A stretch of DNA of 64,000 bases, taken from Oasisia sp. SBJ-2009 (lineage: Eukaryota > Annelida > Polychaeta > Sabellida > Siboglinidae). The translations under genes were made by a program, and so were the position numbers. The stretch lies in NCBI GenBank assembly GCA_964017155.1, contig OZ024867.1, forward strand, positions 16,626,262 through 16,690,261. The letters run 5' to 3'. This document shows positions 1-64,000 of this stretch, in pieces; position 1 is the first letter of the stretch; each line of letters opens with the position of its first letter. The notes beneath the pieces were generated by a model that saw only the letters and a list, made by a program, of their open reading frames with translations, was not told where the DNA came from and searched no databases.

Positions 1-3000
1 GATGTGTAAGACTTGATGTGTAAGACTTGGTGTGTAAGACTTGATTTGTATGACTTGGTGTGAAACACTTGATGTGTAAGACTTGATGTGTAAGACTTGG
101 TGTGTAAGACTTGGTGTGTAAGACTTGGTGTGTAAGACATGGTGTGTTATACTTGATGTGTAAGATTTGATGTGTAAGACAGGGTGTGAAAGACATGGTG
201 TGTAAGACTTGGTGTGTAAGACATGGTGTGTAAGACTTGATGTGTAAGACATGGTGTGTAAGACTAGGTGTATAAGACATGGTGTGTACGACATGGTGTG
301 TTAGACTTGGTGTGTAACTCATGGTGTGTAAGACTTGGTGTGTAAGACATGGTGTGTAGGACATGGTGTGTAGGACATGGTGTGTAAGACTTGGTGTGTA
401 AAACTTGGTGTGTAAGACATGGTGTGTAAGACCTGGTGTGTAAGACATGGTGTGTAAGACCTGGTGTGTAAGACATGGTGTGTAAGACTTGATGTGTAAG
501 ACCTGGTGTGTAAGACTTTGTGTGTATGACATGGTGTGTAATACTTGATGTGTAAGACTTGATGTGTACGACATTGTGTGTAAGCCCTGGTGTGTAAGAC
601 ATGGTGTGTAAGACCTGGTGTGTAAGACATGGTGTGTAAGACTTGGTTTGTAAGACTTAGTGTGTAAGACATGGTGTTTAAGACATGGTGTGTAAGACAT
701 GGTGTGTAAGACTTGGTGTGAAAGACTTGATGTTTAAGACTTGATGTGTAAGACTTGGCGTGTAAGACTTGGTGTGTAAGACATGGTGTGTAAGACTTGG
801 TGTGTAAGACTTGGTGTGAAAGACTTGATGTGTAAGACTTGATGTGTAAGACTTGATGTGTAAGACTTGGTGTGTAAGACTTGATGTGTAAGACTTGGTG
901 TGAAACACTTGATATGTAAGACTTGATGTGTAAGACTTGGTGTGTAAGACATGGTGTGTAAGACTTGGTGTGTAAGACTCGGTGTGTAAGACATGGTGTG
1001 TAAGACTTGGTGTGTAAGTCTTAGTGTGTAAGACATGGTGTTTAAGACATGGTGTGTAGGACATGGTGTGTAAGACTTGGTGTGTAAAACTTGGTGTGTA
1101 AGACATGGTTTGTAAGACCTGGTGTGTAAGACATGGTGTGTAAGACCTGGTGTGTAAGATATGGTGTGTAAGACTTGATGTGTAAGACCTGGTGTGTAAG
1201 ACTTGGTGTGTAAGACATGGTGTGTAATACTTGATGTGTCAGACTTGATGTGTACGACATGGTGTGTAAGCCCTGGTGTGTAAGACATGGTGTGTAAGAC
1301 ATGGTGTGTAAGACTTGGTGTGTAAGACTTGGTGTGTAAGACTTGGTGTGTAAGCCCTGGTGTGTAAGACATGGTGTGTAAGACCTGGTGTGTAAGACAT
1401 GGTGTGTAAGACTTGGTGTGTAAGACTTAGTGTGGAAGACATGGTGTTTAAGACATGGTGTGTAAGACATGGTGTGTAAGACTTGGTGTGAAAGACTTGA
1501 TGTGTAAGACTTGATGTGTAAGATTTGGTGTGTAAGACTTGGTGTGTAAAACATGGTGTATAAGACATGGTGTGTAAGACTTGGTGTTTAAGACTTGTTG
1601 TGTACGACATGGTGTGTAAGACTTGGTGTGTAAGACATGGTGTGTAAGACTTGGTGTGTAAGACATGGTGTGTAAGACTTGGTGTGTAAGACTTGTTGTG
1701 AAAGACTTGATGTGTAAGACTTGATGTGTAAGACTTGATGTGTAAGACTTGGTGTGTAAGACTTGATTTGTATGACTTGGTGTGAAACACTTGATGTGTA
1801 AGACTTGATGTGTAAGACTTGGTGTGTAAGACTTGGTGTGTAAGACTTGGTGTGTAAGACATGGTGTGTTATACTTGATGTGTAAGATTTGATGTGTAAG
1901 ACAGGGTGTGAAAGACATGGTGTGTAAGACTTGGTGTGTAAGACATGGTGTGTAAGACTTGATGTGTAAGACATGGTGTGTAAGACTAGGTGTATAAGAC
2001 ATGGTGTGTACGACATGGTGTGTAAGACTTGGTGTGTAACTCATGGTGTGTAAGACTTGGTGTGTAAGACATGGTGTGTAGGACATGGTGTGTAGGACAT
2101 GGTGTGTAGGACATGGTGTGTAGGACATGGTGTGTAAGACATGGTGTGTAAGACCTGGTGTGTAAGACATGGTGTGTAAGACCTGGTGTGTAAGACATGG
2201 TGTGTAAGACTTGATGTGTAAGACCTGGTGTGTAAGACTTTGTGTGTATGACATGGTGTGTAATACTTGATGTGTAAGACTTGATGTGTACGACATTGTG
2301 TGTAAGCCCTGGTGTGTAAGACATGGTGTGTAAGACCTGGTGTGTAAGACATGGTGTGTAAGACTTGGTGTGTAAGACTTAGTGTGTAAGACATGGTGTT
2401 TAAGACATGGTGTGTAAGACATGGTGTGTAAGACTTGGTGTGAAAGACTTGATGTTTAAGACTTGATGTGTAAGACTTGGTGTGTAAGACTTGGTGTGTA
2501 AGACATGGTGTGTAAGACTTGGTGTGTAAGACTTGGTGTGAAAGACTTGATGTGTAAGACTTGATGTGTAAGACTTGATGTGTAAGACTTGGTGTGTAAG
2601 ACTTGATGTGTAAGACTTGGTGTGAAACACTTGATATGTAAGACTTGATGTGTAAGACTTGGTGTGTAAGACATGGTGTGTAAGACTTGGTGTGTAAGAC
2701 TCGGTGTGTAAGACATGGTGTGTAAGACTTGGTGTGTAAGTCTTAGTGTGTAAGACATGGTGTTTAAGACATGGTGTGTAGGACATGGTGTGTAAGACTT
2801 GGTGTGTAAAACTTGGTGTGTAAGACATGGTTTGTAAGACCTGGTGTGTAAGACATGGTGTGTAAGACCTGGTGTGTAAGACATGGTGTGTAAGACTTGA
2901 TGTGTAAGACCTGGTGTGTAAGACTTGGTGTGTAAGACATGGTGTGTAATACTTGATGTGTCAGACTTGATGTGTACGACATGGTGTGTAAGCCCTGGTG

Positions 3001-4620
3001 TGTAAGACATGGTGTGTAAGACCTGGTGTGTAAGACATGGTGTGTAAGACTTGGTGTGTAAGACTTGGTGTGTAAGACTTGGTGTGTAAGCCCTGGTGTG
3101 TAAGACATGGTGTGTAAGACCTGGTGTGTAAGACATGGTGTGTAAGACTTGGTGTGTAAGACTTAGTGTGGAAGACATGGTGTTTAAGACATGGTGTGTA
3201 AGACATGGTGTGTAAGACTTGGTGTGAAAGACTTGATGTGTAAGACTTGATGTGTAAGATTTGGTGTGTAAGACTTGGTGTGTAAAACATGGTGTATAAG
3301 ACATGGTGTGTAAGACTTGGTGTTTAAGACTTGGTGTGAAAGACTTGATGTGTAAGACTTGATGTGTAAGACTTGGTGTGTAAGACATGGTGTGTTATAC
3401 TTGATGTGTAAGATTTGATGTGTAAGACATGGTGTGTAAGACATGGTGTGTAAGACTTGGTGTGTAAGACATGGTGTGTAAGACTTGATGTGTAAGACAT
3501 TGTGTGTAAGACTTGGTGTGTAAGACATGGTGTGTAAGACTTGGTGTGTAAGACTCGGTGTGTAAGACATGGTGTGTAAGACATGGTGTGTAAGACTTGG
3601 TGTGAAAGACTTGATGTTTAAGACTTGATGTGTAAGACTTGGCGTGTAAGACTTGGTGTGTAAGACATGGTGTGTAAGACTTGGTGTGTAAGACTTGGTG
3701 TGAAAGACTTGATGTGTAAGACTTGATGTGTAAGACTTGATGTGTAAGACTTGGTGTGTAAGACTTGATGTGTAAGACTTGGTGTGAAACACTTGATATG
3801 TAAGACTTGATGTGTAAGACTTGGTGTGTAAGACATGGTGTGTAAGACTTGGTGTGTAAGACTCGGTGTGTAAGACATGGTGTGTAAGACTTGGTGTGTA
3901 AGTCTTAGTGTGTAAGACATGGTGTTTAAGACATGGTGTGTAGGACATGGTGTGTAAGACTTGGTGTGTAAAACTTGGTGTGTAAGACATGGTTTGTAAG
4001 ACCTGGTGTGTAAGACATGGTGTGTAAGACCTGGTGTGTAAGACATGGTGTGTAAGACTTGATGTGTAAGACCTGGTGTGTAAGACTTGGTGTGTAAGAC
4101 ATGGTGTGTAATACTTGATGTGTCAGACTTGATGTGTACGACATGGTGTGTAAGCCCTGGTGTGTAAGACATGGTGTGTAAGACCTGGTGTGTAAGACAT
4201 GGTGTGTAAGACTTGGTGTGTAAGACTTGGTGTGTAAGACTTGGTGTGTAAGCCCTGGTGTGTAAGACATGGTGTGTAAGACCTGGTGTGTAAGACATGG
4301 TGTGTAAGACTTGGTGTGTAAGACTTAGTGTGGAAGACATGGTGTTTAAGACATGGTGTGTAAGACATGGTGTGTAAGACTTGGTGTGAAAGACTTGATG
4401 TGTAAGACTTGATGTGTAAGATTTGGTGTGTAAGACTTGGTGTGTAAAACATGGTGTATAAGACATGGTGTGTAAGACTTGGTGTTTAAGACTTGTTGTG
4501 TACGACATGGTGTGTAAGACTTGGTGTGTAAGACATGGTGTGTAAGACTTGGTGTGTAAGACATGGTGTGTAAGACTTGGTGTGTAAGACTTGTTGTGAA
4601 AGACTTGATGTGTAAGACTT
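1..4620. repeat. Higher-order repeat, 4620 bp, copy 1
   Basis: This block contains 330 units. It matches 4621-9240 base for base in all lines I compared. Inside, 1-1587 is homologous to 1723-3323 (offset 1722, growing to 1736 after a one-unit difference near 1290) and 734-1722 is homologous to 3618-4620 (offset 2884, then 2898). A 294-bp connector at 3324-3617 does not fit this scheme and resembles sequence near 25450-25640. The period therefore arose by nested partial duplication rather than repetition of one simple block. Confidence 0.92.
3324..3617. repeat. Connector block inside the 4620-bp repeat
   Basis: These 21 units have a variant order not found in the flanking sub-blocks: GTTATACTT, ATTTGATG, a CATTGTG unit and ACTCGG. 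Copies recur at 7944-8237 and 11794-12087. Similar order appears in the mosaic region near 25440-25640 and 33000-33130, so the connector links the ordered and mosaic parts of the array. Confidence 0.75.
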
Positions 4621-7600
4621 GATGTGTAAGACTTGATGTGTAAGACTTGGTGTGTAAGACTTGATTTGTATGACTTGGTGTGAAACACTTGATGTGTAAG
4701 ACTTGATGTGTAAGACTTGGTGTGTAAGACTTGGTGTGTAAGACTTGGTGTGTAAGACATGGTGTGTTATACTTGATGTGTAAGATTTGATGTGTAAGAC
4801 AGGGTGTGAAAGACATGGTGTGTAAGACTTGGTGTGTAAGACATGGTGTGTAAGACTTGATGTGTAAGACATGGTGTGTAAGACTAGGTGTATAAGACAT
4901 GGTGTGTACGACATGGTGTGTTAGACTTGGTGTGTAACTCATGGTGTGTAAGACTTGGTGTGTAAGACATGGTGTGTAGGACATGGTGTGTAGGACATGG
5001 TGTGTAAGACTTGGTGTGTAAAACTTGGTGTGTAAGACATGGTGTGTAAGACCTGGTGTGTAAGACATGGTGTGTAAGACCTGGTGTGTAAGACATGGTG
5101 TGTAAGACTTGATGTGTAAGACCTGGTGTGTAAGACTTTGTGTGTATGACATGGTGTGTAATACTTGATGTGTAAGACTTGATGTGTACGACATTGTGTG
5201 TAAGCCCTGGTGTGTAAGACATGGTGTGTAAGACCTGGTGTGTAAGACATGGTGTGTAAGACTTGGTTTGTAAGACTTAGTGTGTAAGACATGGTGTTTA
5301 AGACATGGTGTGTAAGACATGGTGTGTAAGACTTGGTGTGAAAGACTTGATGTTTAAGACTTGATGTGTAAGACTTGGCGTGTAAGACTTGGTGTGTAAG
5401 ACATGGTGTGTAAGACTTGGTGTGTAAGACTTGGTGTGAAAGACTTGATGTGTAAGACTTGATGTGTAAGACTTGATGTGTAAGACTTGGTGTGTAAGAC
5501 TTGATGTGTAAGACTTGGTGTGAAACACTTGATATGTAAGACTTGATGTGTAAGACTTGGTGTGTAAGACATGGTGTGTAAGACTTGGTGTGTAAGACTC
5601 GGTGTGTAAGACATGGTGTGTAAGACTTGGTGTGTAAGTCTTAGTGTGTAAGACATGGTGTTTAAGACATGGTGTGTAGGACATGGTGTGTAAGACTTGG
5701 TGTGTAAAACTTGGTGTGTAAGACATGGTTTGTAAGACCTGGTGTGTAAGACATGGTGTGTAAGACCTGGTGTGTAAGATATGGTGTGTAAGACTTGATG
5801 TGTAAGACCTGGTGTGTAAGACTTGGTGTGTAAGACATGGTGTGTAATACTTGATGTGTCAGACTTGATGTGTACGACATGGTGTGTAAGCCCTGGTGTG
5901 TAAGACATGGTGTGTAAGACATGGTGTGTAAGACTTGGTGTGTAAGACTTGGTGTGTAAGACTTGGTGTGTAAGCCCTGGTGTGTAAGACATGGTGTGTA
6001 AGACCTGGTGTGTAAGACATGGTGTGTAAGACTTGGTGTGTAAGACTTAGTGTGGAAGACATGGTGTTTAAGACATGGTGTGTAAGACATGGTGTGTAAG
6101 ACTTGGTGTGAAAGACTTGATGTGTAAGACTTGATGTGTAAGATTTGGTGTGTAAGACTTGGTGTGTAAAACATGGTGTATAAGACATGGTGTGTAAGAC
6201 TTGGTGTTTAAGACTTGTTGTGTACGACATGGTGTGTAAGACTTGGTGTGTAAGACATGGTGTGTAAGACTTGGTGTGTAAGACATGGTGTGTAAGACTT
6301 GGTGTGTAAGACTTGTTGTGAAAGACTTGATGTGTAAGACTTGATGTGTAAGACTTGATGTGTAAGACTTGGTGTGTAAGACTTGATTTGTATGACTTGG
6401 TGTGAAACACTTGATGTGTAAGACTTGATGTGTAAGACTTGGTGTGTAAGACTTGGTGTGTAAGACTTGGTGTGTAAGACATGGTGTGTTATACTTGATG
6501 TGTAAGATTTGATGTGTAAGACAGGGTGTGAAAGACATGGTGTGTAAGACTTGGTGTGTAAGACATGGTGTGTAAGACTTGATGTGTAAGACATGGTGTG
6601 TAAGACTAGGTGTATAAGACATGGTGTGTACGACATGGTGTGTAAGACTTGGTGTGTAACTCATGGTGTGTAAGACTTGGTGTGTAAGACATGGTGTGTA
6701 GGACATGGTGTGTAGGACATGGTGTGTAGGACATGGTGTGTAGGACATGGTGTGTAAGACATGGTGTGTAAGACCTGGTGTGTAAGACATGGTGTGTAAG
6801 ACCTGGTGTGTAAGACATGGTGTGTAAGACTTGATGTGTAAGACCTGGTGTGTAAGACTTTGTGTGTATGACATGGTGTGTAATACTTGATGTGTAAGAC
6901 TTGATGTGTACGACATTGTGTGTAAGCCCTGGTGTGTAAGACATGGTGTGTAAGACCTGGTGTGTAAGACATGGTGTGTAAGACTTGGTGTGTAAGACTT
7001 AGTGTGTAAGACATGGTGTTTAAGACATGGTGTGTAAGACATGGTGTGTAAGACTTGGTGTGAAAGACTTGATGTTTAAGACTTGATGTGTAAGACTTGG
7101 TGTGTAAGACTTGGTGTGTAAGACATGGTGTGTAAGACTTGGTGTGTAAGACTTGGTGTGAAAGACTTGATGTGTAAGACTTGATGTGTAAGACTTGATG
7201 TGTAAGACTTGGTGTGTAAGACTTGATGTGTAAGACTTGGTGTGAAACACTTGATATGTAAGACTTGATGTGTAAGACTTGGTGTGTAAGACATGGTGTG
7301 TAAGACTTGGTGTGTAAGACTCGGTGTGTAAGACATGGTGTGTAAGACTTGGTGTGTAAGTCTTAGTGTGTAAGACATGGTGTTTAAGACATGGTGTGTA
7401 GGACATGGTGTGTAAGACTTGGTGTGTAAAACTTGGTGTGTAAGACATGGTTTGTAAGACCTGGTGTGTAAGACATGGTGTGTAAGACCTGGTGTGTAAG
7501 ACATGGTGTGTAAGACTTGATGTGTAAGACCTGGTGTGTAAGACTTGGTGTGTAAGACATGGTGTGTAATACTTGATGTGTCAGACTTGATGTGTACGAC

Positions 7601-9240
7601 ATGGTGTGTAAGCCCTGGTGTGTAAGACATGGTGTGTAAGACCTGGTGTGTAAGACATGGTGTGTAAGACTTGGTGTGTAAGACTTGGTGTGTAAGACTT
7701 GGTGTGTAAGCCCTGGTGTGTAAGACATGGTGTGTAAGACCTGGTGTGTAAGACATGGTGTGTAAGACTTGGTGTGTAAGACTTAGTGTGGAAGACATGG
7801 TGTTTAAGACATGGTGTGTAAGACATGGTGTGTAAGACTTGGTGTGAAAGACTTGATGTGTAAGACTTGATGTGTAAGATTTGGTGTGTAAGACTTGGTG
7901 TGTAAAACATGGTGTATAAGACATGGTGTGTAAGACTTGGTGTTTAAGACTTGGTGTGAAAGACTTGATGTGTAAGACTTGATGTGTAAGACTTGGTGTG
8001 TAAGACATGGTGTGTTATACTTGATGTGTAAGATTTGATGTGTAAGACATGGTGTGTAAGACATGGTGTGTAAGACTTGGTGTGTAAGACATGGTGTGTA
8101 AGACTTGATGTGTAAGACATTGTGTGTAAGACTTGGTGTGTAAGACATGGTGTGTAAGACTTGGTGTGTAAGACTCGGTGTGTAAGACATGGTGTGTAAG
8201 ACATGGTGTGTAAGACTTGGTGTGAAAGACTTGATGTTTAAGACTTGATGTGTAAGACTTGGCGTGTAAGACTTGGTGTGTAAGACATGGTGTGTAAGAC
8301 TTGGTGTGTAAGACTTGGTGTGAAAGACTTGATGTGTAAGACTTGATGTGTAAGACTTGATGTGTAAGACTTGGTGTGTAAGACTTGATGTGTAAGACTT
8401 GGTGTGAAACACTTGATATGTAAGACTTGATGTGTAAGACTTGGTGTGTAAGACATGGTGTGTAAGACTTGGTGTGTAAGACTCGGTGTGTAAGACATGG
8501 TGTGTAAGACTTGGTGTGTAAGTCTTAGTGTGTAAGACATGGTGTTTAAGACATGGTGTGTAGGACATGGTGTGTAAGACTTGGTGTGTAAAACTTGGTG
8601 TGTAAGACATGGTTTGTAAGACCTGGTGTGTAAGACATGGTGTGTAAGACCTGGTGTGTAAGACATGGTGTGTAAGACTTGATGTGTAAGACCTGGTGTG
8701 TAAGACTTGGTGTGTAAGACATGGTGTGTAATACTTGATGTGTCAGACTTGATGTGTACGACATGGTGTGTAAGCCCTGGTGTGTAAGACATGGTGTGTA
8801 AGACCTGGTGTGTAAGACATGGTGTGTAAGACTTGGTGTGTAAGACTTGGTGTGTAAGACTTGGTGTGTAAGCCCTGGTGTGTAAGACATGGTGTGTAAG
8901 ACCTGGTGTGTAAGACATGGTGTGTAAGACTTGGTGTGTAAGACTTAGTGTGGAAGACATGGTGTTTAAGACATGGTGTGTAAGACATGGTGTGTAAGAC
9001 TTGGTGTGAAAGACTTGATGTGTAAGACTTGATGTGTAAGATTTGGTGTGTAAGACTTGGTGTGTAAAACATGGTGTATAAGACATGGTGTGTAAGACTT
9101 GGTGTTTAAGACTTGTTGTGTACGACATGGTGTGTAAGACTTGGTGTGTAAGACATGGTGTGTAAGACTTGGTGTGTAAGACATGGTGTGTAAGACTTGG
9201 TGTGTAAGACTTGTTGTGAAAGACTTGATGTGTAAGACTT
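4621..9240. repeat. Higher-order repeat, 4620 bp, copy 2
   Basis: This is the second 330-unit copy, directly abutting the first. Rare markers recur at exactly +4620: GATTTGTATGACTT at 4663 and 6385, the GTGTTAGAC variant at 4919 and the GGCGTG variant near 5378. I found no difference from copy 1 in the lines compared, which suggests very recent duplication or ongoing homogenisation. Confidence 0.92.
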
Positions 9241-12200
9241 GATGTGTAAGACTTGATGTGTAAGACTTGGTGTGTAAGACTTGATTTGTATGACTTGGTG
9301 TGAAACACTTGATGTGTAAGACTTGATGTGTAAGACTTGGTGTGTAAGACTTGGTGTGTAAGACTTGGTGTGTAAGACATGGTGTGTTATACTTGATGTG
9401 TAAGATTTGATGTGTAAGACAGGGTGTGAAAGACATGGTGTGTAAGACTTGGTGTGTAAGACATGGTGTGTAAGACTTGATGTGTAAGACATGGTGTGTA
9501 AGACTAGGTGTATAAGACATGGTGTGTACGACATGGTGTGTAAGACTTGGTGTGTAACTCATGGTGTGTAAGACTTGGTGTGTAAGACATGGTGTGTAGG
9601 ACATGGTGTGTAGGACATGGTGTGTAGGACATGGTGTGTAGGACATGGTGTGTAAGACATGGTGTGTAAGACCTGGTGTGTAAGACATGGTGTGTAAGAC
9701 CTGGTGTGTAAGACATGGTGTGTAAGACTTGATGTGTAAGACCTGGTGTGTAAGACTTTGTGTGTATGACATGGTGTGTAATACTTGATGTGTAAGACTT
9801 GATGTGTACGACATTGTGTGTAAGCCCTGGTGTGTAAGACATGGTGTGTAAGACCTGGTGTGTAAGACATGGTGTGTAAGACTTGGTGTGTAAGACTTAG
9901 TGTGTAAGACATGGTGTTTAAGACATGGTGTGTAAGACATGGTGTGTAAGACTTGGTGTGAAAGACTTGATGTTTAAGACTTGATGTGTAAGACTTGGTG
10001 TGTAAGACTTGGTGTGTAAGACATGGTGTGTAAGACTTGGTGTGTAAGACTTGGTGTGAAAGACTTGATGTGTAAGACTTGATGTGTAAGACTTGATGTG
10101 TAAGACTTGGTGTGTAAGACTTGATGTGTAAGACTTGGTGTGAAACACTTGATATGTAAGACTTGATGTGTAAGACTTGGTGTGTAAGACATGGTGTGTA
10201 AGACTTGGTGTGTAAGACTCGGTGTGTAAGACATGGTGTGTAAGACTTGGTGTGTAAGTCTTAGTGTGTAAGACATGGTGTTTAAGACATGGTGTGTAGG
10301 ACATGGTGTGTAAGACTTGGTGTGTAAAACTTGGTGTGTAAGACATGGTTTGTAAGACCTGGTGTGTAAGACATGGTGTGTAAGACCTGGTGTGTAAGAC
10401 ATGGTGTGTAAGACTTGATGTGTAAGACCTGGTGTGTAAGACTTGGTGTGTAAGACATGGTGTGTAATACTTGATGTGTCAGACTTGATGTGTACGACAT
10501 GGTGTGTAAGCCCTGGTGTGTAAGACATGGTGTGTAAGACCTGGTGTGTAAGACATGGTGTGTAAGACTTGGTGTGTAAGACTTGGTGTGTAAGACTTGG
10601 TGTGTAAGCCCTGGTGTGTAAGACATGGTGTGTAAGACCTGGTGTGTAAGACATGGTGTGTAAGACTTGGTGTGTAAGACTTAGTGTGGAAGACATGGTG
10701 TTTAAGACATGGTGTGTAAGACATGGTGTGTAAGACTTGGTGTGAAAGACTTGATGTGTAAGACTTGATGTGTAAGATTTGGTGTGTAAGACTTGGTGTG
10801 TAAAACATGGTGTGTAAGACATGGTGTGTAAGACTTGGTGTGTAAGACTTAGTGTGTAAGACATGGTGTTTAAGACATGGTGTGTAAGACATGGTGTGTA
10901 AGACTTGGTGTGAAAGACTTGATGTTTAAGACTTGATGTGTAAGACTTGGTGTGTAAGACTTGGTGTGTAAGACATGGTGTGTAAGACTTGGTGTGTAAG
11001 ACTTGGTGTGAAAGACTTGATGTGTAAGACTTGATGTGTAAGACTTGATGTGTAAGACTTGGTGTGTAAGACTTGATGTGTAAGACTTGGTGTGAAACAC
11101 TTGATATGTAAGACTTGATGTGTAAGACTTGGTGTGTAAGACATGGTGTGTAAGACTTGGTGTGTAAGACTCGGTGTGTAAGACATGGTGTGTAAGACTT
11201 GGTGTGTAAGTCTTAGTGTGTAAGACATGGTGTTTAAGACATGGTGTGTAGGACATGGTGTGTAAGACTTGGTGTGTAAAACTTGGTGTGTAAGACATGG
11301 TTTGTAAGACCTGGTGTGTAAGACATGGTGTGTAAGACCTGGTGTGTAAGACATGGTGTGTAAGACTTGATGTGTAAGACCTGGTGTGTAAGACTTGGTG
11401 TGTAAGACATGGTGTGTAATACTTGATGTGTCAGACTTGATGTGTACGACATGGTGTGTAAGCCCTGGTGTGTAAGACATGGTGTGTAAGACCTGGTGTG
11501 TAAGACATGGTGTGTAAGACTTGGTGTGTAAGACTTGGTGTGTAAGACTTGGTGTGTAAGCCCTGGTGTGTAAGACATGGTGTGTAAGACCTGGTGTGTA
11601 AGACATGGTGTGTAAGACTTGGTGTGTAAGACTTAGTGTGGAAGACATGGTGTTTAAGACATGGTGTGTAAGACATGGTGTGTAAGACTTGGTGTGAAAG
11701 ACTTGATGTGTAAGACTTGATGTGTAAGATTTGGTGTGTAAGACTTGGTGTGTAAAACATGGTGTATAAGACATGGTGTGTAAGACTTGGTGTTTAAGAC
11801 TTGGTGTGAAAGACTTGATGTGTAAGACTTGATGTGTAAGACTTGGTGTGTAAGACATGGTGTGTTATACTTGATGTGTAAGATTTGATGTGTAAGACAT
11901 GGTGTGTAAGACATGGTGTGTAAGACTTGGTGTGTAAGACATGGTGTGTAAGACTTGATGTGTAAGACATTGTGTGTAAGACTTGGTGTGTAAGACATGG
12001 TGTGTAAGACTTGGTGTGTAAGACTCGGTGTGTAAGACATGGTGTGTAAGACATGGTGTGTAAGACTTGGTGTGAAAGACTTGATGTTTAAGACTTGATG
12101 TGTAAGACTTGGCGTGTAAGACTTGGTGTGTAAGACATGGTGTGTAAGACTTGGTGTGTAAGACTTGGTGTGAAAGACTTGATGTGTAAGACTTGATGTG

Positions 12201-13090
12201 TAAGACTTGATGTGTAAGACTTGGTGTGTAAGACTTGATGTGTAAGACTTGGTGTGAAACACTTGATATGTAAGACTTGATGTGTAAGACTTGGTGTGTA
12301 AGACATGGTGTGTAAGACTTGGTGTGTAAGACTCGGTGTGTAAGACATGGTGTGTAAGACTTGGTGTGTAAGTCTTAGTGTGTAAGACATGGTGTTTAAG
12401 ACATGGTGTGTAGGACATGGTGTGTAAGACTTGGTGTGTAAAACTTGGTGTGTAAGACATGGTTTGTAAGACCTGGTGTGTAAGACATGGTGTGTAAGAC
12501 CTGGTGTGTAAGACATGGTGTGTAAGACTTGATGTGTAAGACCTGGTGTGTAAGACTTGGTGTGTAAGACATGGTGTGTAATACTTGATGTGTCAGACTT
12601 GATGTGTACGACATGGTGTGTAAGCCCTGGTGTGTAAGACATGGTGTGTAAGACCTGGTGTGTAAGACATGGTGTGTAAGACTTGGTGTGTAAGACTTGG
12701 TGTGTAAGACTTGGTGTGTAAGCCCTGGTGTGTAAGACATGGTGTGTAAGACCTGGTGTGTAAGACATGGTGTGTAAGACTTGGTGTGTAAGACTTAGTG
12801 TGGAAGACATGGTGTTTAAGACATGGTGTGTAAGACATGGTGTGTAAGACTTGGTGTGAAAGACTTGATGTGTAAGACTTGATGTGTAAGATTTGGTGTG
12901 TAAGACTTGGTGTGTAAAACATGGTGTATAAGACATGGTGTGTAAGACTTGGTGTTTAAGACTTGTTGTGTACGACATGGTGTGTAAGACTTGGTGTGTA
13001 AGACATGGTGTGTAAGACTTGGTGTGTAAGACATGGTGTGTAAGACTTGGTGTGTAAGACTTGTTGTGAAAGACTTGATGTGTAAGACTT
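9241..13090. repeat. Shortened higher-order repeat, 3850 bp, copy 3
   Basis: This block begins like the 4620-bp copies but is 770 bp (55 units) shorter. Markers after about 10870 sit at +3850 relative to copy 2 (7804 to 11654, 8238 to 12088, 9504 to 13354). It also holds a 952-bp (68-unit) step between homologous segments at 9918 and 10870. Near 9541-9660 it carries four consecutive TAGGACAT units and TAAGAC, the state of the inner 1723-type sub-block, instead of the two such units and TTAGAC found at the start of copies 1 and 2. This is the pattern of unequal exchange out of register. Confidence 0.88.
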
Positions 13091-14700
13091 GATGTGTAAG
13101 ACTTGATGTGTAAGACTTGGTGTGTAAGACTTGATTTGTATGACTTGGTGTGAAACACTTGATGTGTAAGACTTGATGTGTAAGACTTGGTGTGTAAGAC
13201 TTGGTGTGTAAGACTTGGTGTGTAAGACATGGTGTGTTATACTTGATGTGTAAGATTTGATGTGTAAGACAGGGTGTGAAAGACATGGTGTGTAAGACTT
13301 GGTGTGTAAGACATGGTGTGTAAGACTTGATGTGTAAGACATGGTGTGTAAGACTAGGTGTATAAGACATGGTGTGTACGACATGGTGTGTAAGACTTGG
13401 TGTGTAACTCATGGTGTGTAAGACTTGGTGTGTAAGACATGGTGTGTAGGACATGGTGTGTAGGACATGGTGTGTAGGACATGGTGTGTAGGACATGGTG
13501 TGTAAGACATGGTGTGTAAGACCTGGTGTGTAAGACATGGTGTGTAAGACCTGGTGTGTAAGACATGGTGTGTAAGACTTGATGTGTAAGACCTGGTGTG
13601 TAAGACTTTGTGTGTATGACATGGTGTGTAATACTTGATGTGTAAGACTTGATGTGTACGACATTGTGTGTAAGCCCTGGTGTGTAAGACATGGTGTGTA
13701 AGACCTGGTGTGTAAGACATGGTGTGTAAGACTTGGTGTGTAAGACTTAGTGTGTAAGACATGGTGTTTAAGACATGGTGTGTAAGACATGGTGTGTAAG
13801 ACTTGGTGTGAAAGACTTGATGTTTAAGACTTGATGTGTAAGACTTGGTGTGTAAGACTTGGTGTGTAAGACATGGTGTGTAAGACTTGGTGTGTAAGAC
13901 TTGGTGTGAAAGACTTGATGTGTAAGACTTGATGTGTAAGACTTGATGTGTAAGACTTGGTGTGTAAGACTTGATGTGTAAGACTTGGTGTGAAACACTT
14001 GATATGTAAGACTTGATGTGTAAGACTTGGTGTGTAAGACATGGTGTGTAAGACTTGGTGTGTAAGACTCGGTGTGTAAGACATGGTGTGTAAGACTTGG
14101 TGTGTAAGTCTTAGTGTGTAAGACATGGTGTTTAAGACATGGTGTGTAGGACATGGTGTGTAAGACTTGGTGTGTAAAACTTGGTGTGTAAGACATGGTT
14201 TGTAAGACCTGGTGTGTAAGACATGGTGTGTAAGACCTGGTGTGTAAGACATGGTGTGTAAGACTTGATGTGTAAGACCTGGTGTGTAAGACTTGGTGTG
14301 TAAGACATGGTGTGTAATACTTGATGTGTCAGACTTGATGTGTACGACATGGTGTGTAAGCCCTGGTGTGTAAGACATGGTGTGTAAGACCTGGTGTGTA
14401 AGACATGGTGTGTAAGACTTGGTGTGTAAGACTTGGTGTGTAAGACTTGGTGTGTAAGCCCTGGTGTGTAAGACATGGTGTGTAAGACCTGGTGTGTAAG
14501 ACATGGTGTGTAAGACTTGGTGTGTAAGACTTAGTGTGGAAGACATGGTGTTTAAGACATGGTGTGTAAGACATGGTGTGTAAGACTTGGTGTGAAAGAC
14601 TTGATGTGTAAGACTTGATGTGTAAGATTTGGTGTGTAAGACTTGGTGTGTAAAACATGGTGTATAAGACATGGTGTGTAAGACTTGGTGTTTAAGACTT
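13091..14700. repeat. Partial higher-order repeat, copy 4
   Basis: This is the start of a further copy (GATTTGTATGACTT marker at 13133). It follows the first-family pattern for about 1.6 kb and then passes into the second unit family near 14701. At that point the expected GTGTACGAC or GTGTTAT continuation is replaced by units containing GGTGAGTAAG at 14757. It marks the end of the regular 4620-bp organisation. Confidence 0.85.
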
Positions 14701-16471
14701 GGTGTGAAAGACTTGATGTGTAAGACTTGATGTGTAAGACTTGATGTGTATGACTTGGTGAGTAAGACTTGGTGTGTAAGACTTGGTGTGTAAGACAGGG
14801 TGTGAAAGACATGGTGTGTAAGACTTGGTGTGTAAAACATGGTGTGTAAGACTTGGTGTGTAAGACATGGTGTGTAAGACATGGTGTGTAAGACCTGGTG
14901 TGTAAGACATGGTGTGTAAGACTTGATGTGTAAGACCTGGAGTGTAAGACTTGGTGTGTAAGACATGGTGTGTAATACTTGATGTGTCAGACTTGATGTG
15001 TACGACATGGTGTGTAAGCCCTGGTGTGTAAGACATGGTGTGTAAGACCTGCTGTGTAAGACATGGTGTGTAAGACTTGGTGTGTAAGACTTGATGTGTA
15101 AGACTTGGTGTGTAAGACTTGGTGTGTAAGACTTGGTGTGTAAGACATGGTGTGTTATACTTGATGTGTAAGATTTGATGTGTAAGACAGGGTGTGAAAG
15201 ACATGGTGTGTAAGACTTGGTGTGTAAGTCATGGTGTGTAAGACTTGGTGTGTAAGACATGGTGTGTAAGATATGGTGTGTAAGACTTGGTGTGTAACAC
15301 ATGGTGTGTAAGACTTGGTGTGTAAGACATGGTGTGTAGGACATGGTGTGTAGGACATGGTGTGTAAGACTTGGTGTGTAAAACTTGGTGTGTAAGACTA
15401 GGTGTGTAAGACTTGGTGTGTAAGACATGGTGTGTAAGACTTGGTGTGTAACACATGGTGTGTAAGACATGGTGTGTAAGACTTGGTGAGTAACACATGG
15501 TGTGTAAGACTTGGTGTGTAAGACTTGGTATGTAAAACTTGGTGTGTAAGACATGGTGTGTAAGACCTGGTGTGTAAGACATGGTGTGTAAGACCTGGTG
15601 TGTAAGACATGGTGTGTAAGACTTGATGTGTAAGACCTGGTGTGTAAGACTTGGTGTGTAAGACATGGTGTGTAATACTTGATGTGTCAGACTTGATGTG
15701 TACGACATGGTGTGTAAGCCCTGGTGTGTAAGACATGGTGTGTAAGACCTGGTGTGTAAGACATGGTGTGTAAGACTTGGTGTGTAAGACTTGGTGTGTA
15801 AGACTTGGTGTGTAAGCCCTGGTGTGTAAGACATGGTGTGTAAGACCTGGTGTGTAAGACATGGTGTGTAAGACTTGGTGTGTAAGACTTAGTGTGGAAG
15901 ACATGGTGTTTAAGACATGGTGTGTAAGACATGGTGTGTAAGACTTGGTGTGAAAGACTTGATGTGTAAGATTTGGTGTGTAAGACTTGGTGTGTAAAAC
16001 ATGGTGTATAAGACATGGTGTGTAAGACTCTTGGTGTTTAAGACTTGGTGTGAAAGACTTGATGTGTAAGACTTGATGTGTAAGACTTGATGTGTAAGAC
16101 TTGGTGAGTAAGACTTGGTGTGTAAGACTTGGTGTGTAAGACAGGGTGTGAAAGACATGGTGTGTAAGACCTGGTGTGTAAGACATGGTGTGTAAGACTT
16201 GGTGTGTAAGACTTGGTGTGTAAGACTTGGTGTGTAAGCCCTGGTGTGTAAGACATGGTGTGTAAGACCTGGTGTGTAAGACATGGTGTGTAAGACTTGG
16301 TGTGTAAGACTTAGTGTGGAAGACATGGTGTTTAAGACATGGTGTGTAAGACATGGTGTGTAAGACTTGGTGTGAAAGACTTGATGTGTAAGACTTGATG
16401 TGTAAGATTTGGTGTGTAAGACTTGGTGTGTAAAACATGGTGTATAAGACATGGTGTGTAAGACTTGGTGT
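14701..16471. repeat. Second unit family block
   Basis: These are still 14-bp units in phase, but with variants absent from 1-14700: GGTGAGTAAG (14757), CCTGGAGTG, CCTGCTGTG, GTAAGTCATGG, GTAAGATATGG, CTAGGTGTGTAAG and GGTATGTAAAAC. A 2-bp insertion lies at about 16029. Related blocks occur at about 18147, 20756, 27364, 31158 and 36000. A precise copy lies at 53415-55185. Confidence 0.82.
16029..16030. other. 2-bp phase-shifting insertion
   Basis: The string GTAAGACTCTTGGTG replaces GTAAGACTTGGTG, adding two bases and shifting the 14-bp phase by 2 from here on. The exact pair inserted is ambiguous (TC or CT). Confidence 0.9.
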
Positions 16472-18146
16472 TTAAGACTTGTTGTGTACGACATGGTGTG
16501 TAAGACTTGGTGTGTAAGACATGGTGTGTAAGACTTGGTGTGTAAGACATGGTGTGTAAGACTTGGTGTGTAAGACTTGTTGTGAAAGACTTGATGTGTA
16601 AGACTTGATGTGTAAGACTTGATGTGTAAGACTTGGTGTGTAAGACTTGATTTGTATGACTTGGTGTGAAACACTTGATGTGTAAGACTTGATGTGTAAG
16701 ACTTGATGTGTAAGACTTGGTGTGTAAGACTTGGTGTGTAAGACTTGGTGTGTAAGACATGGTGTGTTATACTTGATGTGTAAGATTTGATGTGTAAGAC
16801 AGGGTGTGAAAGACATGGTGTGTAAGACTTGGTGTGTAAGACATGGTGTGTAAGACTTGATGTGTAAGACATGGTGTGTAAGACTAGGTGTATAAGACAT
16901 GGTGTGTACGACATGGTGTGTAAGACTTGGTGTGTAACTCATGGTGTGTAAGACTTGGTGTGTAAGACATGGTGTGTAGGACATGGTGTGTAGGACATGG
17001 TGTGTAGGACATGGTGTGTAGGACATGGTGTGTAAGACATGGTGTGTAAGACCTGGTGTGTAAGACATGGTGTGTAAGACCTGGTGTGTAAGACATGGTG
17101 TGTAAGACTTGATGTGTAAGACCTGGTGTGTAAGACTTTGTGTGTATGACATGGTGTGTAATACTTGATGTGTAAGACTTGATGTGTACGACATTGTGTG
17201 TAAGCCCTGGTGTGTAAGACATGGTGTGTAAGACCTGGTGTGTAAGACATGGTGTGTAAGACTTGGTGTGTAAGACTTAGTGTGTAAGACATGGTGTTTA
17301 AGACATGGTGTGTAAGACATGGTGTGTAAGACTTGGTGTGAAAGACTTGATGTTTAAGACTTGATGTGTAAGACTTGGTGTGTAAGACTTGGTGTGTAAG
17401 ACATGGTGTGTAAGACTTGGTGTGTAAGACTTGGTGTGAAAGACTTGATGTGTAAGACTTGATGTGTAAGACTTGATGTGTAAGACTTGGTGTGTAAGAC
17501 TTGATGTGTAAGACTTGGTGTGAAACACTTGATATGTAAGACTTGATGTGTAAGACTTGGTGTGTAAGACATGGTGTGTAAGACTTGGTGTGTAAGACTC
17601 GGTGTGTAAGACATGGTGTGTAAGACTTGGTGTGTAAGTCTTAGTGTGTAAGACATGGTGTTTAAGACATGGTGTGTAGGACATGGTGTGTAAGACTTGG
17701 TGTGTAAAACTTGGTGTGTAAGACATGGTTTGTAAGACCTGGTGTGTAAGACATGGTGTGTAAGACCTGGTGTGTAAGACATGGTGTGTAAGACTTGATG
17801 TGTAAGACCTGGTGTGTAAGACTTGGTGTGTAAGACATGGTGTGTAATACTTGATGTGTCAGACTTGATGTGTACGACATGGTGTGTAAGCCCTGGTGTG
17901 TAAGACATGGTGTGTAAGACCTGGTGTGTAAGACATGGTGTTTAAGACTTGGTGTGTAAGACTTGGTGTGTAAGACTTGGTGTGTAAGCCCTGGTGTGTA
18001 AGACATGGTGTGTAAGACCTGGTGTGTAAGACATGGTGTGTAAGACTTGGTGTGTAAGACTTAGTGTGGAAGACATGGTGTTTAAGACATGGTGTGTAAG
18101 ACATGGTGTGTAAGACTTGGTGTGAAAGACTTGATGTGTAAGACTT
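16472..18146. repeat. Return of first-family block
   Basis: After the second-family block the order matches 1588 onward, with the GATTTGTATGACTT marker at 16649. One extra GATGTGTAAGACTT unit is present near 16681-16720 relative to 61-100. The segment runs into GGTGAGTAAG at 18147. This is the last first-family block before a gap of about 16.8 kb; the next GATTTGTATGACTT marker is at 33463. Confidence 0.82.
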
Positions 18147-35252: not shown

Positions 35253-35254
35253 TC
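35253..35254. other. 2-bp phase-shifting insertion, related copy
   Basis: The same GACTCTTGG change occurs here with matching flanks (GTATAAGACATGG upstream, GTGTTTAAG downstream). This indicates a copied event rather than an independent one. Confidence 0.9.
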
Positions 35255-37580
35255 TTGGTGTTTAAGACTTGGTGTGAAAGACTTGATGTGTAAGACTTGA
35301 TGTGTAAGACTTGATGTGTAAGACTTGGTGAGTAAGACTTGGTGTGTAAGACTTGGTGTGTAAGACAGGGTGTGAAAGACATGGTGTGTAAGACCTGGTG
35401 TGTAAGACATGGTGTGTAAGACTTGGTGTTTAAGACTTGGTGTGTAAGACTTGGTGTGTAAGCCCTGGTGTGTAAGACATGGTGTGTAAGACCTGGTGTG
35501 TAAGACATGGTGTGTAAGACTTGGTGTGTAAGACTTAGTGTGGAAGACATGGTGTTTAAGACATGGTGTGTAAGACATGGTGTGTAAGACTTGGTGTGAA
35601 AGACTTGATGTGTAAGACTTGATGTGTAAGATTTGGTGTGTAAGACTTGGTGTGTAAAACATGGTGTATAAGACATGGTGTGTAAGACTTGGTGTTTAAG
35701 ACTTGTTGTGTACGACATGGTGTGTAAGACTTGGTGTGTAAGACATGGTGTGTAAGACTTGGTGTGTAAGACATGGTGTGTAAGACTTGGTGTGTAAGAC
35801 TTGTTGTGAAAGACTTGATGTGTAAGACTTGATGTGTAAGACTTGATGTGTAAGACTTGGTGTGTAAGACTTGATTTGTATGACTTGGTGTGAAACACTT
35901 GATGTGTAAGACTTGATGTGTAAGACTTGATGTGTAAGACTTGGTGTGTAAGACCTGGTGTGTAAGACATGGTGTGTAAGACTTGATGTGTAAGACCTGG
36001 AGTGTAAGACTTGGTGTGTAAGACATGGTGTGTAATACTTGATGTGTCAGACTTGATGTGTACGACATGGTGTGTAAGCCCTGGTGTGTAAGACATGGTG
36101 TGTAAGACCTGCTGTGTAAGACATGGTGTGTAAGACTTGGTGTGTAAGACTTGATGTGTAAGACTTGGTGTGTAAGACTTGGTGTGTAAGACTTGGTGTG
36201 TAAGACATGGTGTGTTATACTTGATGTGTAAGATTTGATGTGTAAGACAGGGTGTGAAAGACATGGTGTGTAAGACTTGGTGTGTAAGTCATGGTGTGTA
36301 AGACTTGGTGTGTAAGACATGGTGTGTAAGATATGGTGTGTAAGACTTGGTGTGTAACACATGGTGTGTAAGACTTGGTGTGTAAGACATGGTGTGTAGG
36401 ACATGGTGTGTAGGACATGGTGTGTAAGACTTGGTGTGTAAAACTTGGTGTGTAAGACTAGGTGTGTAAGACTTGGTGTGTAAGACATGGTGTGTAAGAC
36501 TTGGTGTGTAACACATGGTGTGTAAGACATGGTGTGTAAGACTTGGTGAGTAACACATGGTGTGTAAGACTTGGTGTGTAAGACTTGGTATGTAAAACTT
36601 GGTGTGTAAGACATGGTGTGTAAGACCTGGTGTGTAAGACATGGTGTGTAAGACCTGGTGTGTAAGACATGGTGTGTAAGACTTGATGTGTAAGACCTGG
36701 TGTGTAAGACTTGGTGTGTAAGACATGGTGTGTAATACTTGATGTGTCAGACTTGATGTGTACGACATGGTATGTAAGCCCTGGTGTGTAAGACATGGTG
36801 TGTAAGACCTGGTGTGTAAGACATGGTGTGTAAGACTTGGTGTGTAAGACTTGGTGTGTAAGACTTGGTGTGTAAGCCCTGGTGTGTAAGACATGGTGTG
36901 TAAGACCTGGTGTGTAAGACATGGTGTGTAAGACTTGGTGTGTAAGACTTAGTGTGGAAGACATGGTGTTTAAGACATGGTGTGTAAGACATGGTGTGTA
37001 AGACTTGGTGTGAAAGACTTGATGTGTAAGATTTGGTGTGTAAGACTTGGTGTGTAAAACATGGTGTATAAGACATGGTGTGTAAGACTTGGTGTTTAAG
37101 ACTTGGTGTGAAAGACTTGATGTGTAAGACTTGATGTGTAAGACTTGATGTGTAAGACTTGGTGAGTAAGACTTGGTGTGTAAGACTTGGTGTGTAAGAC
37201 AGGGTGTGAAAGACATGGTGTGTAAGACTTGGTGTGTAAAACATGGTGTGTAAGACTTGGTGTGTAAGACATGGTGTGTAAGACATGGTGTGTAAGACCT
37301 GGTGTGTAAGACATGGTGTGTAAGACTTGATGTGTAAAACCTGGAGTGTAAGGCTTGGTGTGTAAGACATGGTGTGTAATACTTGATGTGTCAGACTTGA
37401 TGTGTACGACATGGTGTGTAAGCCCTGGTGTGTAAGACATGGTGTGTAAGACCTGCTGTGTAAGACATGGTGTGTAAGACTTGGTGTGTAAGACTTGGTG
37501 TGTAAGACTTGGTGTGTAAGCCCTGGTGTGTAAGACATGGTGTGTAAGACCTGGTGTGTAAGACATGGTGTGTAAGACTT

Positions 37581-37594
37581 TTGGTATAAGACTT
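37581..37594. other. Unique rearranged unit
   Basis: The unit reads TTGGTATAAGACTT in place of GGTGTGTAAGACTT. It is still 14 bp, and is best read as a 2-bp gain followed by a 2-bp loss in the same unit plus a substitution. I saw it only here. Confidence 0.8.
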
Positions 37595-53414: not shown

Positions 53415-56400
53415 GGTGTGAAAGACTTGATGTGTAAGACTTGATGTGTAAGACTTGATGTGTATGACTTGGTGAGTAAGACTTGGTGTGTAAGACTTGG
53501 TGTGTAAGACAGGGTGTGAAAGACATGGTGTGTAAGACTTGGTGTGTAAAACATGGTGTGTAAGACTTGGTGTGTAAGACATGGTGTGTAAGACATGGTG
53601 TGTAAGACCTGGTGTGTAAGACATGGTGTGTAAGACTTGATGTGTAAGACCTGGAGTGTAAGACTTGGTGTGTAAGACATGGTGTGTAATACTTGATGTG
53701 TCAGACTTGATGTGTACGACATGGTGTGTAAGCCCTGGTGTGTAAGACATGGTGTGTAAGACCTGCTGTGTAAGACATGGTGTGTAAGACTTGGTGTGTA
53801 AGACTTGATGTGTAAGACTTGGTGTGTAAGACTTGGTGTGTAAGACTTGGTGTGTAAGACATGGTGTGTTATACTTGATGTGTAAGATTTGATGTGTAAG
53901 ACAGGGTGTGAAAGACATGGTGTGTAAGACTTGGTGTGTAAGTCATGGTGTGTAAGACTTGGTGTGTAAGACATGGTGTGTAAGATATGGTGTGTAAGAC
54001 TTGGTGTGTAACACATGGTGTGTAAGACTTGGTGTGTAAGACATGGTGTGTAGGACATGGTGTGTAGGACATGGTGTGTAAGACTTGGTGTGTAAAACTT
54101 GGTGTGTAAGACTAGGTGTGTAAGACTTGGTGTGTAAGACATGGTGTGTAAGACTTGGTGTGTAACACATGGTGTGTAAGACATGGTGTGTAAGACTTGG
54201 TGAGTAACACATGGTGTGTAAGACTTGGTGTGTAAGACTTGGTATGTAAAACTTGGTGTGTAAGACATGGTGTGTAAGACCTGGTGTGTAAGACATGGTG
54301 TGTAAGACCTGGTGTGTAAGACATGGTGTGTAAGACTTGATGTGTAAGACCTGGTGTGTAAGACTTGGTGTGTAAGACATGGTGTGTAATACTTGATGTG
54401 TCAGACTTGATGTGTACGACATGGTGTGTAAGCCCTGGTGTGTAAGACATGGTGTGTAAGACCTGGTGTGTAAGACATGGTGTGTAAGACTTGGTGTGTA
54501 AGACTTGGTGTGTAAGACTTGGTGTGTAAGCCCTGGTGTGTAAGACATGGTGTGTAAGACCTGGTGTGTAAGACATGGTGTGTAAGACTTGGTGTGTAAG
54601 ACTTAGTGTGGAAGACATGGTGTTTAAGACATGGTGTGTAAGACATGGTGTGTAAGACTTGGTGTGAAAGACTTGATGTGTAAGATTTGGTGTGTAAGAC
54701 TTGGTGTGTAAAACATGGTGTATAAGACATGGTGTGTAAGACTCTTGGTGTTTAAGACTTGGTGTGAAAGACTTGATGTGTAAGACTTGATGTGTAAGAC
54801 TTGATGTGTAAGACTTGGTGAGTAAGACTTGGTGTGTAAGACTTGGTGTGTAAGACAGGGTGTGAAAGACATGGTGTGTAAGACCTGGTGTGTAAGACAT
54901 GGTGTGTAAGACTTGGTGTGTAAGACTTGGTGTGTAAGACTTGGTGTGTAAGCCCTGGTGTGTAAGACATGGTGTGTAAGACCTGGTGTGTAAGACATGG
55001 TGTGTAAGACTTGGTGTGTAAGACTTAGTGTGGAAGACATGGTGTTTAAGACATGGTGTGTAAGACATGGTGTGTAAGACTTGGTGTGAAAGACTTGATG
55101 TGTAAGACTTGATGTGTAAGATTTGGTGTGTAAGACTTGGTGTGTAAAACATGGTGTATAAGACATGGTGTGTAAGACTTGGTGTTTAAGACTTGTTGTG
55201 TACGACATGGTGTGTAAGACTTGGTGTGTAAGACATGGTGTGTAAGACTTGGTGTGTAAGACATGGTGTGTAAGACTTGGTGTGTAAGACTTGTTGTGAA
55301 AGACTTGATGTGTAAGACTTGATGTGTAAGACTTGATGTGTAAGACTTGGTGTGTAAGACTTGATTTGTATGACTTGGTGTGAAACACTTGATGTGTAAG
55401 ACTTGATGTGTAAGACTTGATGTGTAAGACTTGGTGTGTAAGACTTGGTGTGTAAGACTTGGTGTGTAAGACATGGTGTGTTATACTTGATGTGTAAGAT
55501 TTGATGTGTAAGACAGGGTGTGAAAGACATGGTGTGTAAGACTTGGTGTGTAAGACATGGTGTGTAAGACTTGATGTGTAAGACATGGTGTGTAAGACTA
55601 GGTGTATAAGACATGGTGTGTACGACATGGTGTGTAAGACTTGGTGTGTAACTCATGGTGTGTAAGACTTGGTGTGTAAGACATGGTGTGTAGGACATGG
55701 TGTGTAGGACATGGTGTGTAGGACATGGTGTGTAGGACATGGTGTGTAAGACATGGTGTGTAAGACCTGGTGTGTAAGACATGGTGTGTAAGACCTGGTG
55801 TGTAAGACATGGTGTGTAAGACTTGATGTGTAAGACCTGGTGTGTAAGACTTTGTGTGTATGACATGGTGTGTAATACTTGATGTGTAAGACTTGATGTG
55901 TACGACATTGTGTGTAAGCCCTGGTGTGTAAGACATGGTGTGTAAGACCTGGTGTGTAAGACATGGTGTGTAAGACTTGGTGTGTAAGACTTAGTGTGTA
56001 AGACATGGTGTTTAAGACATGGTGTGTAAGACATGGTGTGTAAGACTTGGTGTGAAAGACTTGATGTTTAAGACTTGATGTGTAAGACTTGGTGTGTAAG
56101 ACTTGGTGTGTAAGACATGGTGTGTAAGACTTGGTGTGTAAGACTTGGTGTGAAAGACTTGATGTGTAAGACTTGATGTGTAAGACTTGATGTGTAAGAC
56201 TTGGTGTGTAAGACTTGATGTGTAAGACTTGGTGTGAAACACTTGATATGTAAGACTTGATGTGTAAGACTTGGTGTGTAAGACATGGTGTGTAAGACTT
56301 GGTGTGTAAGACTCGGTGTGTAAGACATGGTGTGTAAGACTTGGTGTGTAAGTCTTAGTGTGTAAGACATGGTGTTTAAGACATGGTGTGTAGGACATGG

Positions 56401-62400: not shown

Positions 62401-64000
62401 ACTTGGTGTGTAAAACATGGTGTATAAGACATGGTGTGTAAGACTTGGTGTTTAAGACTTGGTGTGAAAGACTTGATGTGTAAGACTTGATGTGTAAGAC
62501 TTGATGTGTAAGACTTGGTGAGTAAGACTTGGTGTGTAAGACTTGGTGTGTAAGACAGGGTGTGAAAGACATGGTGTGTAAGACTTGGTGTGTAAAACAT
62601 GGTGTGTAAGACTTGGTGTGTAAGACATGGTGTGTAAGACATGGTGTGTAAGACCTGGTGTGTAAGACATGGTGTGTAAGACTTGATGTGTAAGACCTGG
62701 AGTGTAAGACTTGGTGTGTAAGACATGGTGTGTAATACTTGATGTGTCAGACTTGATGTGTACGACATGGTGTGTAAGCCCTGGTGTGTAAGACATGGTG
62801 TGTAAGACCTGCTGTGTAAGACATGGTGTGTAAGACTTGGTGTGTAAGACTTAGTGTGTAAGACATGGTGTGTAAGCCCTGGTGTGTAAGACATGGTGTG
62901 TAAGACCTGGTGTGTAAGACATGGTGTGTAAGACTTGGTGTGTAAGACTTAGTGTGTAAGACATGGTGTGTAAGACTTGGTGTGAAAGACTTGATGTGTA
63001 AGACTTGGTGTGTAAGACTTAGTGTGTAAGACATGGTGTTTAAGACATGGTGTGTAAGACATGGTGTGTAAGACTTGGTGTGAAAGACTTGATGTGTAAG
63101 ACTTGTTGTGTAAGATTTGGTGTGTAAGACTTGGTGTGTAAGACTTGGTGTGTAAGACTCGGTGTGTAAGACATGGTGTGTAAGACTTGGTGTGTAAGTC
63201 TTAGTGTGTAAGACATGGTGTTTAAGACATGGTGTGTAGGACATGGTGTGTAAGACTTGGTGTGTAAAACTTGGTGTGTAAGACATGGTTTGTAAGACCT
63301 GGTGTGTAAGACATGGTGTGTAAGACCTGGTGTGTAAGACATGGTGTGTAAGACTTGATGTGTAAGACCTGGTGTGTAAGACTTGGTGTGTAAGACATGG
63401 TGTGTAATACTTGATGTGTCAGACTTGATGTGTACGACATGGTGTGTAAGCCCTGGTGTGTAAGACATGGTGTGTAAGACCTGGTGTGTAAGACATGGTG
63501 TGTAAGACTTGGTGTGTAAGACTTGGTGTGTAAGACTTGGTGTGTAAGCCCTGGTGTGTAAGACATGGTGTGTAAGACCTGGTGTGTAAGACATGGTGTG
63601 TAAGACTTGGTGTGTAAGACTTAGTGTGGAAGACATGGTGTTTAAGACATGGTGTGTAAGACATGGTGTGTAAGACTTGGTGTGAAAGACTTGATGTGTA
63701 AGACTTGATGTGTAAGATTTGGTGTGTAAGACTTGGTGTGTAAAACATGGTGTATAAGACATGGTGTGTAAGACTTGGTGTTTAAGACTTGGTGTGTAAG
63801 ACTTGATGTGTAAGACTTGATGTGTAAGACTTGGTGAGGAAGACTTGATGTGTAAGACTTGGTGTGTAAGACATGGTGTGTAAGACTTGGTGTGTAAGAC
63901 ATGGTGTGTAAGACTTGGTGTGTAAGACATGGTGTGTAAGACATGGTGTGTAAGACTTGGTGTGTAACACATGGTGTGTAAGACTTGGTGTGTAAGACAT
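53415..64000. repeat. Second-family and mosaic region, in large copy 2
   Basis: Equivalent of 14701-25286. It includes the 2-bp insertion at about 54743, the return of first-family order at 55186-56860, the five-unit triplication at about 61285-61490 and the GGGG variant at 61159-61162. It is cut by the window edge. Confidence 0.85.
54743..54744. other. 2-bp phase-shifting insertion, large-copy-2 equivalent
   Basis: This is the counterpart of 16029 at +38714, with identical flanks. Confidence 0.9.

Follow-up and report, generated by a model that had tools for sequence, protein, structure and literature searches.

The window, by which we mean the whole 64,000-bp stretch of DNA considered here (positions 16,626,262-16,690,261 of contig C14, in an assembly of 764,102,534 bp and 33 contigs), consists of a 14-bp satellite throughout. 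Unit parsing divided it into 4,570 units, 4,567 of them 14 bp and three of them 16 bp in length, which fell into 78 types with TGTGTAAGACTTGG as the commonest; TRF run on positions 1-20,000 concurred, and the 14-bp satellite reported in the initial annotation was thus confirmed. Self-identity of the window at lag 14 was 0.884. This is a satellite DNA array, a long head-to-tail array of a single short unit; nothing that we found implies centromere identity. We also retrieved the flanking DNA, 80 kb on the left and 120 kb on the right of the window, so that 264 kb was analysed, and positions below 1 or above 64,000 refer to DNA outside the window.

Genome-wide, a 26-bp satellite pattern gave 40,022 forward and 1,949 reverse matches, and among the matches listed the places begin at C14:14,783,502. 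Extrapolation from the density in the fetched forward part, with equal density assumed, gave an array of ~1.71 Mb forward and ~0.084 Mb reverse. We sampled 17 places of 2 kb each from 15.0 to 18.0 Mb; eight of them, spanning 15.0 to 16.4 Mb, were satellite, and the non-satellite samples were those at 15.38, 16.10 and 16.25 Mb and all six from 16.85 Mb on. The orientation of the satellite flips from forward to reverse, within ~50 bp, at C14 ~16,785,450. Two other tandem repeats were seen near the array, a GC-rich one (0.66) at 16,900,001-16,902,000, whose self-likeness is 0.95 at lags including 480 and 624, and one with a 10-bp unit at 18,000,001-18,002,000.

The window contains 126 open reading frames of at least 150 amino acids, and all of those listed are on the minus strand. 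They encode a 14-residue repeat and arise mechanically, because the common units have no stop codon on that strand; we did not accept them as genes, but as a product of the repeat itself. Gene finders could misname such frames. One minus-strand frame matched a protein, P0001 (256 amino acids, on a 222,119-bp contig), with 62% identity over 50% of the query. This protein starts with the same kind of 14-residue repeat and looks like the 14-bp repeat read through into other sequence; as it comes from another record, it suggests that a related 14-bp satellite may exist elsewhere. P0001 had no match among solved structures. Short repeat patterns had no match in genome_contigs or viral_contigs, and window positions 1-8,000 had none in plasmids by megablast, whose low-complexity filter may mask such a query. 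The satellite was not found in print by motif-string or phrase searches, from which subscription journals are largely absent: in one of the papers matched by motif string, the string was part of a PCR primer, and the phrase matches, judged by their listings, concerned DNA recorders and barcoding.

The features of the region are as follows, in window coordinates unless C14 is named.
-6,528 to 32,185 (in the window, 1-32,185), + strand: copy 1 of the 38,714-bp duplication, from the bounded lag-38,714 match; starts at C14:16,619,733, 6,529 bases before the window
32,186-70,899 (in the window, 32,186-64,000), + strand: copy 2, from the lag-38,714 match; ends at C14:16,697,160
32,186-32,222, + strand: 37-bp stretch that holds the duplication junction and also stands at the left and right edges; from match length minus period and the edge sequences
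1-9,541, + strand: nested exact tandem duplication, period 4,620, with 435 bp of homology at the join; exact match of 5,055 bp; begins 134 bases to the left of the window; recurs in copy 2 from 38,581
6,958-14,663, + strand: nested exact tandem duplication, period 3,850; exact match of 3,856 bp; in copy 2 from 45,672
9,856-11,765, + strand: nested exact tandem duplication, period 952; exact match of 958 bp; in copy 2 from 48,570
16,019-16,034, + strand: 16-bp unit TGTGTAAGACTCTTGG, a 2-bp phase step, from unit parsing
18,758 (C14:16,645,019), + strand: difference between copies, T in copy 1 (the odd, derived base) and G at 57,472 in copy 2
26,555 (C14:16,652,816), + strand: difference from the lag comparison, G in copy 1 and A in copy 2 (partner 65,269, beyond the window)
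28,927-28,928 (C14:16,655,188-9), + strand: difference from the lag comparison, TA in copy 1 and GG in copy 2 (partner 67,641-67,642, beyond the window)
35,243-35,258, + strand: second 16-bp unit, from unit parsing
36,410, + strand: difference from the lag comparison, G in copy 2 and A in its copy 1 partner at C14:16,623,957 (before the window)
54,733-54,748, + strand: third 16-bp unit, the copy 2 partner of the 16,019 unit, from unit parsing
C14:16,692,890-16,730,270 (window 66,629 onward): second large tandem duplication, period 19,362, directly downstream and overlapping the end of copy 2; without substitution in 18,032 compared bases (10,180 + 7,852)

The initial annotation had reported that positions 1-25,286 and 38,715-64,000 agree except for one substitution, 18,758 T against 57,472 G, and comparison of all 25,286 comparable positions at lag 38,714 bore this out. 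Across the flanking DNA, identity at this lag was near 1.0 only over C14:16,619,733-16,658,483, a match of 38,751 bp that reaches beyond the window at both ends and holds five differing bases at four places; outside it, identity dropped to ~0.88 and the comparison then went off phase. Chance likeness within a repetitive array was ruled out, since the full duplicated segment was 0.99987 identical at lag 38,714 and at most 0.886 identical (median 0.806) at 799 other lags in steps of 14 around it. Within the window, no other lag from 1 to 59,999 exceeded 0.895 identity. The period equals 2,763 x 14 + 2 x 16.

Because the match exceeds the period by just 37 bp (38,751 - 38,714), the segment represents one tandem duplication in two copies rather than a higher-order repeat of many copies. 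The "exceptionally large and recent higher-order repeat" first proposed was accordingly correct as to size and recency, with five differing bases in 38,751, and unsupported in so far as it implied many copies: on the evidence of the flanks we rejected a many-copy repeat of 38.7 kb, since there are two copies of the unit and the match stops at either end. With a match about as long as its period, and the same 37 bp at both of its edges and at the junction, the locus is an adjacent segmental (tandem) duplication, whose two copies and both boundaries can be read directly from the bases.

The junction can be read in the same way and lies within 32,186-32,222, not at 38,715 as annotated at first. 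Beyond the 37 bp, the left flank was 0.878 identical to the end of the copy and the right flank 0.880 identical to its start (1 kb each), which is the usual in-register likeness of the 14-bp satellite. The 100-bp string across the junction (window ~32,154-32,253) was unique on both strands of the 264 kb. In the genome, a 55-bp junction pattern had one forward and 11 reverse matches; nine of these 11 fell in the fetched DNA, and were 0.96-0.99 identical over 200 bp on the left side and only 0.85-0.875 on the right.

These features bear on the other explanation raised in the initial annotation, a false duplication, in which an assembler would have written one 38.7-kb segment twice, by placing haplotypes end to end or by misjoining noisy reads, and the four differences would be heterozygous sites or consensus errors. 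We consider this unlikely. The near-perfect identity and the few differences fit it, the longest exact stretch, at 21,061 bp, may be beyond the length of the underlying reads, and a misjoin of noisy reads at 88% identity could arise with neither a gap nor a long near-identical overlap. Nor does the 14-bp register argue against it, because an aligner working on satellite that is 88% alike would keep register too. However, the flanks are 88% alike and match exactly over 37 bp at the join, and the 264 kb contain no N, so that neither a gap nor a long near-identical overlap was found there. Assemblers of accurate reads require a long near-identical overlap, which this join does not have, and an assembly error is for this reason the less likely reading; HiCanu, for example, is described as discarding overlaps below 99.97% identity. 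Furthermore, exact duplications of 1-5 kb, short enough for a single long read, lie inside both copies. The second large exact duplication adjoining copy 2 might itself be a sign of a tangled assembly. On balance, we infer that the assembly is correct here.

The differences between the copies are also of interest for the age of the duplication. The unit TGTGTAATACTTGG at 18,758 occurs once in the window, and the related contexts listed have G. At all four places the odd base was in copy 1, while copy 2 carried the base of the related contexts listed; this one-sidedness counts against a real duplication, although it says little because the two-sided p is 0.125. Four difference events are what would be expected of two copies starting to diverge, and this supports a real duplication. 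The difference sites are up to 21,062 bp apart, so that shorter reads could not have distinguished middle copies, and collapse of long exact repeats is the usual assembler error; a real array of at least three 38.7-kb copies might thus have been reduced to two. We regard such a collapse as very unlikely, since nothing in the assembly indicates it and the unit occurs twice in 264 kb.

The two copies have diverged by four events over 38,751 bp, for which the 95% interval is 2.8e-5 to 2.6e-4 per bp. Assuming, for scale, 3e-9 changes per site per generation, a rate that is not this organism's own, the duplication would be ~17,000 generations old. At the rate given for human centromeres, 1.01e-7 (PMC12240836), which is likewise not this organism's own, it would be ~500 generations old. 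We also counted once-only changes, defined as those found once among at least three like contexts with 40 bp matched on each side. There were 103 in all: three in the 100 kb of 16,626,262-16,726,261, 45 in the preceding 80 kb, 53 in the 50 kb from 16,736,262, and two between. The duplicated neighbourhood is young as a whole, although this measure is lowered by the duplication itself, because an older change is doubled along with the rest. When the matched context was lengthened to 70 bp per side, 88 once-only changes were found, including one at 16,691,477 in copy 2, which is not a post-duplication change because copy 1 carries the same base.

Within the 38.7-kb unit, smaller exact duplications form a mosaic, and the 63,951 50-mers of the window include only 5,382 different ones. 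Such nesting is a direct observation, and it orders the events: the 952-, 3,850- and 4,620-bp duplications predate the 38,714-bp one (unless they were made twice), because they are present in both copies. Their periods are additive (2,898 + 952 = 3,850; 2,898 + 1,722 = 4,620). Stepwise collapse of exact adjacent duplications with units of at least 42 bp took the unit from 38,714 to 29,726 bp in seven steps and thus derived it only in part; the remaining redundancy was dispersed.

The halves of the neighbouring 19,362-bp duplication differ by 1,372 bp (98 units, in register), with 13 bp common to the ends of this segment. We read the difference as a probable deletion in the second half, because the 1,372-bp segment does not repeat the adjacent sequence in tandem. 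Against this reading, ~400 bp near 16,702,400 match at a distance of 1,372 bp, with identities of 1.0 and 0.995; elsewhere in the scanned 4 kb, likeness was 0.84-0.905. Stretches of 2.7-4.6 kb from C14:16,610,086 onward were also found to match those from ~16,706,624 and 16,724,614 onward with zero to two mismatches, at lags of 96,538 and 114,528, and these may be traces of an older, larger duplication. With copy 2 removed, these older matches sit 57.8 and 75.8 kb apart.

A search of the 264 kb with 400-bp seeds, which is blind to register, returned 13 distinct tandem periods (18 rows). All 13 keep the 14-bp register, another feature read directly from the sequence: 12 are multiples of 14, and 38,714 is too after its two 16-bp units are set aside. 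The period of 19,362, also a multiple of 14, is outside this list owing to its indel.

Taken together, the bounded match, the flank identity, the nested duplications, the 19,362-bp neighbour, the register of all 13 periods and the scarcity of once-only changes count for a real duplication. We think it probable that the locus is a real, recent tandem duplication of 38,714 bp within a very long 14-bp satellite array, formed via in-register repair. On this view, a stalled fork or a break close to the segment's right-hand end would have been repaired from the in-register position 38.7 kb back, either by break-induced replication starting behind the fork or by unequal sister-chromatid exchange, and the point of repair would have been the 37 bp of exact homology in DNA otherwise ~88% alike. 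The event would be one step of a local burst, with the 0.95-, 3.85- and 4.6-kb duplications earlier and the 19.4-kb one directly downstream. Circular satellite DNA exists, and reinsertion of a 38.7-kb circle would be expected to produce the junction and the two copies seen here; no result calls for a circle, however, and as a single exchange explains the same facts we regard this route as extremely improbable.

The joins offer some guidance as to the repair that made them. At the eight mismatch-free joins, exact homology measured 435 bp (period 4,620), 37 bp (38,714), 29 bp (19,362), 18 bp (1,484), 6 bp (3,850), 6 bp (952), 5 bp (406) and 0 bp (462). In-register positions drawn at random 20,000 times, with pairs 0.84-0.93 alike, had a median of 11 bp, with at least 29 bp in 0.072 and at least 37 bp in 0.034 of draws. 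Five of the eight joins are therefore in the ordinary range, and the two largest duplications are in the upper tail; the 435-bp join points to an exchange between stretches that were identical beforehand. When single mismatches were allowed, periods 3,220, 2,408, 1,890, 1,680, 1,386 and 896 overshot by 2,237, 215, 223, 190, 58 and 15 bp, respectively. It is possible that longer, imperfect homology was used at these six, which would argue against a reading by chance homology alone. Repair that tolerates mismatches and keeps register, whether break-induced replication or unequal sister exchange, would fit all of the joins. The register kept in 13 of 13 periods is as break-induced replication predicts, and unequal exchange predicts the same, so that the two pathways are not separable here; it is a pathway of this general kind that we infer.

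More tentatively, the array may be in a live burst of growth, in which duplications of ~1 to nearly 40 kb in a zone of ~110 kb outpace single-base mutations, each made in the 14-bp register even though several of the cleanest joins show exact homology that does not exceed the chance length in this DNA. We hold this to be possible, with the balance somewhat against it. If it were true, register, and not long identity, would set where repair restarts, and the steps could be ordered and dated singly.

Duplication of this sort is a recognised route by which repeat arrays expand. Large adjacent duplications in centromeric repeats are already known, as are whole-unit gains and losses in humans, and the present locus would appear to be a larger, young example in a 14-bp satellite. 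As described for maize centromere 10 (PMC4806543), a 22.7-kb adjacent segmental duplication of ~121,000 years also comprises two adjacent direct copies tens of kb long; it too is recent, lies in repeat-rich DNA and carries one short sequence at its two edges and again at its junction (5 nt in maize, 37 bp here). The maize segment is made of retrotransposon pieces, whereas the whole segment here is 14-bp satellite; homology-guided repair is likelier than end joining here because the joined flanks are in-register relatives. In human centromeric satellite arrays, 150 transmissions yielded 18 de novo structural changes, and the events in higher-order arrays measured 680 to 12,228 bp (PMC12240836). 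These are likewise whole-unit gains and losses in satellite, although they were seen in parents and children, whereas the 38,714-bp event, in a basic unit of 14 bp, comes from one assembly. Saltatory amplification, as presented for human centromeres (PMC11062924), resembles the present case in its young amplified blocks within older satellite and its nested structure; human higher-order repeats recur many times, however, and the 38.7-kb unit only twice.

Unequal exchange and break-induced replication have both been described for satellites (PMC8997354), and either would predict in-register, nested duplications of varied length; they are cited here as models, not step-tested at this locus. The same review treats the route of array growth (unequal exchange, break-induced replication or end joining) as open. 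If real, the locus would be a young duplication of large size, within a satellite built purely of short units, in which the edges, the junction and the order relative to smaller duplications are readable to the base, and its short junction string would provide a cheap handle for testing the assembly. A set of young junctions from one such array, with their sizes, register and homology lengths, could separate the models of satellite growth.
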